Origin: Actinomycetota bacterium
GTDB lineage: Bacteria > Actinomycetota > Actinomycetes > Nanopelagicales > Nanopelagicaceae
Direction of reading: 5' to 3'
Length of the DNA: 57,151 nt
Assembly: GCA_026392825.1 (NCBI GenBank)
Contig: JAPLBF010000029.1
Coordinates: 1-57,151 of the forward strand
Both the position numbers and the translations under genes were made by a program. The number at the start of each line of letters is the position of its first letter. Position 1 is the stretch's first letter. This document shows, in pieces, positions 48,050 to 49,786 of this stretch. The notes beneath the pieces are model-generated. The model had not been told where the DNA came from and searched no databases. It saw only the letters and a list, made by a program, of their open reading frames with translations.

Positions 48050-48571
48050 ATGGCGGAGCAACTCCCCGGAATGCCCGATCGTTGGGCACGGCTATGGGCT
48101 CCGCATCGTATGGAGTATTTGAAGGGCGAGAACAGACCACTTTCTGAAAATGGAGTTGATTGTCCGTTCTGCCGAATCCCAACGCTTAGCGATGAAGAGG
48201 GACTAATCGTTGCTCGCGGTGAAAGCGCATACGTTGTTATGAATTTATATCCGTATAACGCTGGACATCTGTTGATCTGCGCCAACCGCCATATTGCTGA
48301 TTTAACTGATCTGACAAAAGCAGAACGAGATGAAATCTCTGATCTAACTGCGCATGCCATGGTTACGCTGCGCAAGGTTTCAGCACCAGCGGGATTTAAT
48401 CTAGGTATGAATCAAGGTGCAATCTCAGGTGCTGGTGTAGCCGAACATATTCATCAGCACGTGGTTCCACGCTGGTCAGGTGATGCAAACTTCATGCCGT
48501 TGATTGGTCAAACAAAAGTTATGCCGGTCCTTTTAGCGCAGAGTCGAAATGAGCTTGCGGCTGCTTGGTAA
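48050..48571 (+). CDS. HIT-family nucleotide hydrolase/phosphorylase
   Basis: 173 residues. Histidine triad HIHQHVVPRW near the C-terminus (about 130-140), preceded by NLGMNQGAISGAGVAEH. An N-terminal zinc-type pair CPFCRIP is also present. The sequence resembles the actinobacterial diadenosine tetraphosphate phosphorylase-like group (Rv2613c, recalled as lying between thrS and pgsA in mycobacteria). Acts on Ap4A or similar dinucleotides, which are by-products of aminoacyl-tRNA synthetases. Follows thrS by 2 nt. Confidence 0.9.
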   Translation: MAEQLPGMPDRWARLWAPHRMEYLKGENRPLSENGVDCPFCRIPTLSDEEGLIVARGESAYVVMNLYPYNAGHLLICANRHIADLTDLTKAERDEISDLTAHAMVTLRKVSAPAGFNLGMNQGAISGAGVAEHIHQHVVPRWSGDANFMPLIGQTKVMPVLLAQSRNELAAAW

Positions 48572-48574
48572 TTT

Positions 48575-49144
48575 TTAAAGCTGAGAAATAAAACTCTTAA
48601 CAACATCTATACCAAGACCATTAGATATAACGATTGGTACCGCGGGAAAAAGTAGACCTGCGGCAAACGCATTTTCTCCGGCTCCAGATATCTCATCTAA
48701 ATATTCTTCGCGAAATTCTGCAACCAACTCTTGATGTTCGGGCTCACTGGCAGAAGATGTTGGAGGGCTAGTGCTGTAATCAGTTATTTGTAGATCGCTC
48801 AAGGAAATCAGCGCGATTGGATTACCTGATTCAGAATGAAGCACAAGGACTGGAGTAACTAGTTGGTCAAAGACTCGATTGGCCAACATAATCGCATCCT
48901 CAAAGTCAGCATCAGATCCGTCTAATTCGTTGACAACTACTAAACGTGGCAACTGAAAATCACTCAGCGCCTGCCATTGATCGATGGTCTTCTGATCAAT
49001 TCCGGCAGCAGGATTTATTGCAAAAATTGCGAGGTCAGAATCGGCGACGATTTCGCTGGCGAGTTGTGCATCGAAGAGATTGGCGATCGCCTGCGGCTGA
49101 GCAGATACGTGGCCGTATATATGGATGCGCTTAAGAGAACTCAC
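48575..49144 (-). CDS. Degenerate EF-G-like GTPase domain protein
   Basis: 189 residues, not a recognised named family. It resembles the G domain of EF-G proteins: RIHIYGHVSAQPQA at the P-loop place, SDLAIFAINPAAGIDQKT at strand G3, LPRLVVVNELD at the NKxD place (residues 72-75), a G'-like middle region with an acidic helix, and a final FPAVPIVISNGLGIDVV segment matching the SA-motif end. The nucleotide-binding residues are gone (no GKT, no NKxD Lys), and about 80 residues holding switch I/II are missing. On the minus strand between the HIT and pgsA genes. The start is GTG at 49144. GTP binding seems unlikely. Confidence 0.6.
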   Translation of the reverse strand: MSSLKRIHIYGHVSAQPQAIANLFDAQLASEIVADSDLAIFAINPAAGIDQKTIDQWQALSDFQLPRLVVVNELDGSDADFEDAIMLANRVFDQLVTPVLVLHSESGNPIALISLSDLQITDYSTSPPTSSASEPEHQELVAEFREEYLDEISGAGENAFAAGLLFPAVPIVISNGLGIDVVKSFISQL

Positions 49145-49157
49145 AGGCGTCAGAATA
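49145..49157 (-). promoter_or_regulatory. Leaderless-type promoter of EF-G-like gene
   Basis: Minus-strand TATTCT (49157-49152), 7 nt before the GTG at 49144. Confidence 0.5.
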
Positions 49158-49179
49158 GGTGAATTTCCGACCTTGAGCC

Positions 49180-49192
49180 TACGATGGTGTTG
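49180..49192 (+). promoter_or_regulatory. Leaderless-type promoter of pgsA
   Basis: TACGAT (49180-49185), 7 nt before the ATG at 49193. An earlier in-frame ATG (49184) lies inside this box and is not used as the start. Confidence 0.5.
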
Positions 49193-49786
49193 ATGTTAAG
49201 CGCTTATTTAAAGCCAGCCGTTACCCGCGCCATCAATCCGATCGCGCGGGGTGCCCTTCGCATTGGTTTAACTCCGAATGCGGTTACTTTCGTTGGCGCA
49301 CTCGGTTTAGTTTCCAGCGCCCTCTATTTTTATCCTCGTCAAGAATTCTTCGTTGGCACCTTATTTATATCTTTCTTCGCACTGAGTGATCTTTTTGATG
49401 GAGCGATGGCGCGCATATCCCAAAGCGGGGCCAGTAAATGGGGTGGATTTTTAGATTCGACTATAGATCGAGTTACTGATTCTGCAATATTGATCGGGCT
49501 GATACTCGCCTTGCTCGATAGCAATGATCCTTTAATTCCGATTGCACTCGGTGCCCTTGTCGTAGGAACCCTGGTTCCATATATACGAGCCAAAGCGGAA
49601 TCAATGGGGATTGAATGCACCGGTGGAATCGCCGAACGCACCGAAAGGTTGATTATCGCGTTAACTGCAATTGGCTTTGAAGGTCTTGGAATTCCGTACG
49701 CACTAGCAATTGGAGTTTGGGTTCTGTTGGCTCTTGCTGCAGTAACAGTGGTTCAAAGAATTTTAATCGTTAAGGCGGCGTTGTAA
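49193..49786 (+). CDS. pgsA: CDP-alcohol phosphatidyltransferase, phosphatidylinositol (phosphate) synthase
   Basis: Joins CDP-diacylglycerol to an inositol (phosphate), the first lipid of the PI/PIM pathway. 197 residues with about six helices. The CDP-alcohol motif D-G-x2-A-R-x8-G-x3-D-x3-D is intact: DGAMAR, then GGFLDSTIDR. Plus-strand operon with the acyltransferase (4 nt later) and pimA, which makes phosphatidylinositol the likely product rather than phosphatidylglycerol. Confidence 0.92.
   Translation: MLSAYLKPAVTRAINPIARGALRIGLTPNAVTFVGALGLVSSALYFYPRQEFFVGTLFISFFALSDLFDGAMARISQSGASKWGGFLDSTIDRVTDSAILIGLILALLDSNDPLIPIALGALVVGTLVPYIRAKAESMGIECTGGIAERTERLIIALTAIGFEGLGIPYALAIGVWVLLALAAVTVVQRILIVKAAL

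Follow-up and report, generated by a model that had tools for sequence, protein, structure and literature searches.

What is a protein of 189 residues that reads like the G domain of an elongation factor and has none of the motifs for binding a nucleotide, and what might it do in the bacteria that keep it? The gene in question (48575-49144, minus strand, GTG start) lies in a window of 57,151 nt, by which we mean the whole stretch of DNA that was analyzed. In the first-pass annotation its product was described as a shrunken EF-G-like G domain with a G′ subdomain, encoded by an open gene. The frame is intact, and open frames for the same protein were found across 17 genera. The likeness to EF-G was borne out by NCBIfam, a PDB sequence search, Foldseek, and VIA-align, and could be sharpened: the closest relative is EF-G2 (EFG II) rather than EF-G. 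The best NCBIfam family match was actinobacterial EF-G2 (NF009377; E = 3.9e-17, 61.9 bits), with residues 36-153 aligned to model positions 102-219; this is below the equivalog cut-off of 890 bits, and the score of a full-length protein is not reached. The top match in the PDB sequence search was EF-G2 of M. smegmatis (FusA2, 9k0z), at 3.3e-9 with the single sequence and at 3.5e-15 with a family profile. The Pfam family GTP_EFTU (PF00009) was matched at 21.9 bits, under its gathering cut-off of 26.5, and weak matches to it (E <= 0.01) were seen in 13 of 25 family members. The homology to EF-G2 is beyond chance. No curated family covering the short protein as such was found in Pfam or NCBIfam. 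Its reading frame stops after domain I, and domains II-V are absent; it has about 190 residues vs. about 720 in EF-G2, with which it is homologous over domain I and G′. It stands outside the EF-G2 equivalog as defined, and is a shrunken descendant of EF-G2.

The fold was predicted with AlphaFold2 from an alignment of the window protein and 79 short relatives, with no EF-G included. An EF-G domain I core with a G′ subdomain was predicted (pLDDT 94, pTM 0.90). Foldseek matched the model to EF-G and EF-G2 chains (best 3.5e-10), and RF3 was also among the fold matches. In VIA-align, 188 of the 189 residues were superposed on residues 6-279 of EF-G, that is, on domain I (Z 21.1, rmsd 2.3); the top match was the EF-G from the FusB complex. 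The prediction could owe something to the numerous EF-G structures in AlphaFold's training, a concern that does not touch the sequence evidence. Compared with domain I and G′ of canonical EF-G (EFG I), the short protein has the same fold at about 15% identity; it lacks the nucleotide site, the helical part of its G′ is reduced, and it stands alone.

The locus order is thrS-HIT-[EF-G2]-pgsA, with the short gene on the strand opposite to HIT and pgsA. A convergent HIT-family gene (48050-48571, plus strand) marks the left side of the EF-G2 slot, and a divergent pgsA, encoding a phosphatidyltransferase (49184-49786, plus strand), marks the right side. Full-length EF-G2 fills this slot in other actinobacterial families, with HIT and/or pgsA alongside (L092, L094, L096, L097); parts of the same EF-G2 neighborhood were seen in L091 and L095, and L093 is an exception. 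Since the same slot holds full-length EF-G2 in other families, "shrunken" can be made more precise: the short gene is an EF-G2 orthologue, reduced at its original locus at the base of the Nanopelagicaceae. In two loci of genus g36 (L083, L102) the short gene directly adjoins thrS, and the HIT gene was not detected.

Earlier states of the gene can still be found within the family. A full EF-G2 of 736 aa lies beside pgsA in the basal genus g38 (G073, L065:3085-5292); it scores 1094 bits on the EF-G2 model and has the intact motifs GHSGSGKT, DTPG, and TKLD. No other member of the family was seen to have EF-G2 at full length. On the other flank of the g38 gene, HIT and thrS are replaced by an ORF of 101 aa and a gene resembling homocysteine S-methyltransferase. 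Intermediates of 343-349 aa are present in genus g29 (L066:2881-3927, L067:2981-4009, L068). They retain all of G′, helices included, and traces of the switch II region, but have lost the P-loop. About 100 extra residues at their C-terminus are faintly like EF-G domain V; this tentative assignment is plausible by eye and alignment but found no support in BLASTP or NCBIfam. In a tree of flanking genes (a 23-taxon subset), all short and intermediate genera grouped together with an ultrafast bootstrap of 100; within this clade g29 was the sister group of the short forms (98), and L065 fell outside it. The simplest reading is that the gene shrank in place by steps, from about 720 residues through 345 to 190; the 345-aa form of g29 could, however, be a side branch instead of a true intermediate.

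It was also considered that a full EF-G2 had been relocated. This was rejected: 66 near-complete genomes of the family were found to hold one canonical EF-G each, at 32-35% identity, along with further GTPases (e.g., TypA), and no full EF-G2. In the genome of the window itself (G000), which is an incomplete draft, no contig with EF-G or EF-Tu was found, and statements on canonical EF-G rest on the relatives. The best match, the shared slot, and the lack of another EF-G2 in those 66 genomes all point to descent from actinobacterial EF-G2.

Matches to the short protein were found in 146 of 151 genomes of the Nanopelagicaceae (acI/Planktophila) and in all 17 genera, a few of them to canonical EF-G only. 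The 13 genomes without a short gene look like assembly gaps, because none of them has an intact HIT gene; one holds a contig-end fragment. A single peptide pattern retrieved 190 relatives from genome contigs, of which 80 were kept, all from MAGs or isolates of freshwater actinobacteria including Ca. Planktophila. In 296 genomes of the phylum from outside the family, frames of at least 427 aa account for almost all of the matches. Two frames of 229 and 264 aa (G294:C108:8559-8720 and G495:C189:8350-8511) gave a partial EF-G-type match, over positions 40-93 only, and may be contig-end fragments. Two differing copies of the short gene were seen in G096, on two contigs (L099, L100). One of these contigs is probably contamination, since the flanking genes of one copy group with genus g25 and those of the other with g34.

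Aligned with full-length EF-G2, the short protein extends from beta1 and the P-loop through the end of domain I. The motif changes read by eye in the first-pass annotation were all confirmed by this alignment. Residues 11-18 (49091-49114, minus strand), the former P-loop (G1), read GHVSAQPQ against GHSGSGKT in EF-G2, and the motif GxxxxGK[ST] was present in none of 105 aligned members of the short form; intact motifs occur in full-length relatives, which are EF-G2 themselves, and no homologues with intact GTPase motifs unrelated to EF-G were found. The switch region was said to be deleted. At residues 25-34 (49043-49072, minus strand) about 55 residues of EF-G2 are gone, comprising switch I, beta2-beta3, G3 (DTPG), and switch II. 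The stretch that follows, beta4 and its loop (SDLAIFAINPAAGIDQ; 48992-49039, minus strand), is the best match to EF-G2 in sequence searches and alignment. The former G4 motif NKxD reads NELD at residues 72-75 (48920-48931, minus strand), as had been noted; it is TKLD in EF-G2 and varies among relatives (NGLD, THLE, TGIE). Residues 166-170 (48635-48649, minus strand), in the former G5 region, read FPAVP, and FPAIP in most relatives.

The G′ subdomain has been retained at residues 99-158 (48671-48850, minus strand), as a beta meander and helix A_G′ in the secondary structure of the model and in the alignment. The meander and this first helix are the best-kept region of the new family (TPYLVLHDDxGxPxALIxLxDLxIxDYS...EHxxLVxEFRxEY); 24 residues of the G′ helices that follow are missing in comparison with EF-G2. 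F144, E147, F160, FPAIP, and GHxSAxP are conserved and specific to the short family, and none of them is an EF-G motif.

A nucleotide might still be bound in a degenerate, non-canonical site. The loop at the old P-loop, GHxSAxP, is nearly invariant in the genus, which speaks for such a site; however, it varies at the family level, the P-loop Lys/Thr is missing from every aligned member, G3 and the switches are deleted, and G4 is variable, which makes nucleotide binding very unlikely. The near-invariance of GHxSAxP in the window (49091-49114) and its relatives suggests, at the level of sequence, a new role for that loop.

The gene was said in the first-pass annotation to be retained rather than decaying, and to have its own promoter. 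The first claim is upheld by a median dN/dS of 0.087 (71 pairs, dS 0.3-1.5) together with the family-wide distribution. For comparison, the values were 0.078 for pgsA, 0.052 for the acyltransferase, and 0.037 for HIT. The promoter was not found in a scan for the generic sigma-70 consensus, but the family-level comparison revealed one: a leaderless -10 element, TATTCT (49152-49157, minus strand), lies 7 nt upstream of the GTG, and in 44 of 47 relatives a TANNNT precedes the start codon by 4-10 nt, most often by 7, vs. 5.7% at random positions. Leaderless promoters of actinobacteria have this arrangement. The short gene is under selection and is very probably expressed. The neighboring pgsA has an apparent leaderless promoter of its own facing away (window 49172-49195); its -10-like element TACGAT is better placed for translation from the ATG near 49193 than from the ATG at 49184.

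If the gene were a pseudogene, a decaying relic of EF-G2, domains II-V and every nucleotide motif would be missing as well. This explanation was rejected as practically impossible: it is contradicted by a dN/dS close to that of pgsA, by open frames throughout the genera, by the conserved promoter, and by a compact fold that is predicted well. A GTPase fold that has been kept, nucleotide motifs that have been lost, and purifying selection together support the pseudo-GTPase reading of the first-pass annotation. We regard the EF-G2 origin, the EF-G domain I fold, and the pseudo-GTPase status of the short protein as almost certain.

Translational GTPases dock in a GTP-dependent manner at the sarcin-ricin loop. 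Because the nucleotide site, the switches, and domains II-V are gone, the short protein should be unable to use this kind of docking, and it would neither dock at the GTPase center nor translocate or recycle. What it has kept, a beta meander and the acidic helix A_G′ within G′, is the region through which EF-G meets the C-terminal domain of L12. Since the retained G′ part is the one that meets the L12-CTD in EF-G, binding to the L12 stalk is the most likely activity among those considered, and a role with L12 or a translation factor can be proposed tentatively from this comparison. The mini-protein may bind the stalk, or another partner that has a basic patch like that of L12, independently of GTP, and may tune the recruitment of true translational GTPases or compete with it. 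A GTP-independent, G′-centered contact with the L12 stalk would then have been part of the ancestral job of EF-G2, and would still be done by the mini-protein. The protein may have a ribosome-associated or EF-G-binding role, as the first-pass annotation had suggested. The whole reading, of an EF-G2 orthologue shrunk at the base of the family that is now a nucleotide-free pseudo-GTPase and most likely an L12-stalk binder, is plausible, if somewhat short of probable.

Helix A_G′ carries the evidence on this point. It has been shown that glutamates 221, 225, and 228 of the EF-G G′ (Mtb numbering) contact L7/L12 (PMC8446442), and that the acidic patch of G′ meets the basic alpha4/alpha5 of the L12-CTD (PMC3677378). 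In the model the helix spans residues 142-155 (48680-48721, minus strand), equivalent to the EF-G helix that contacts L12, with an acidic stripe of E143, E147, and D150. Among the 80 short members, E/D at residue 143, F144, and E147 are each present in all 80, and E/D stands at residue 150 in 72 and at residue 157 in 70. The three classical L12-contact positions are acidic in 72, 22, and 70 of the 80, respectively. Against L12 binding, the middle contact glutamate (residue 154) is thus not kept, and at the family level only 13 of 25 members have an acidic residue at the first position. With a net charge of -20 and a pI of 4.1, the short protein is highly acidic; however, this acidity is partly inherited from the G domain of EF-G2, and the neighborhood, likewise inherited, is uninformative on present function. 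Two properties of EF-G2 bear on the matter. The M. smegmatis protein has no ribosome-dependent GTPase activity (PMC9067457; PMC3832671), yet the title of entry 9k0z describes it as bound to the 70S ribosome; therefore a GTPase-independent role at the ribosome could predate the shrinkage. The tip of G′ is conserved more in EFG II than in EFG I (PMC3150367).

The main rival to L12-stalk binding is that the mini-protein has left translation altogether: in a streamlined cell its stable G′/G-core scaffold would now serve as an adaptor to some unrelated partner. Nothing catalytic or rRNA-facing is left in it, the residues and motifs specific to the short family (F144, E147, F160, FPAIP, GHxSAxP) suggest a new interface, and the L12-contact triad is only partly kept. 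We nevertheless consider such an adaptor unlikely, though a serious competitor: the part that was retained is the part of EF-G that meets L12, and its acidic helix is conserved. Less likely still, the mini-protein could bind canonical EF-G or another translational GTPase and regulate it, as FusB does with EF-G. One canonical EF-G is present alongside in every near-complete relative, but we know of no dimerization of EF-G G domains, and the sole link to FusB is that the top fold match happens to be the EF-G of its complex. Proteins that bind or remodel EF-G do exist, e.g., FusB (PMC12008383). The FusB-type proteins are small and stand alone like the short protein, which could act on a translational GTPase; by description, however, FusB is a two-domain protein of other origin (PMC3352095), and no sequence match to it was seen.

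Few EF-G duplicates are as common as EF-G2 (EFG II), the function of which has yet to be settled (PMC3150367; PMC9067457). The short gene is a natural deletion experiment, in which a freshwater bacterial group that ranks among the most abundant, with strongly streamlined genomes, has discarded all but a 190-residue core with G′. Should the core still do part of the job of EF-G2, this would argue for a GTP-independent, G′-centered role of EF-G2 in general, and the core would be a minimal protein for testing it. If its job is new, the family offers a clear case of a translational GTPase turned pseudo-GTPase, with a surviving intermediate. A family-wide conversion from translational GTPase to a stand-alone, nucleotide-free G-domain/G′ ligand of the L12 stalk or of a translation factor is possible, and is put forward here with reserve. 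No description of the short form was found in open-access text, nor of a class of ribosome regulator such as a GTP-independent L12-stalk ligand, whose reality here we treat as a tentative proposal. The full-length and intermediate states of EF-G2 are still alive in sister genera of the bacteria with the short form. Among known G domains, that of RF3 also has a G′ with an acidic helix and binds the L12-CTD (PMC3677378), a likeness to the acidic-helix G′ of the short protein; RF3, however, has domains 2 and 3 and is active as a GTPase, and the short family is nearer to EF-G2.
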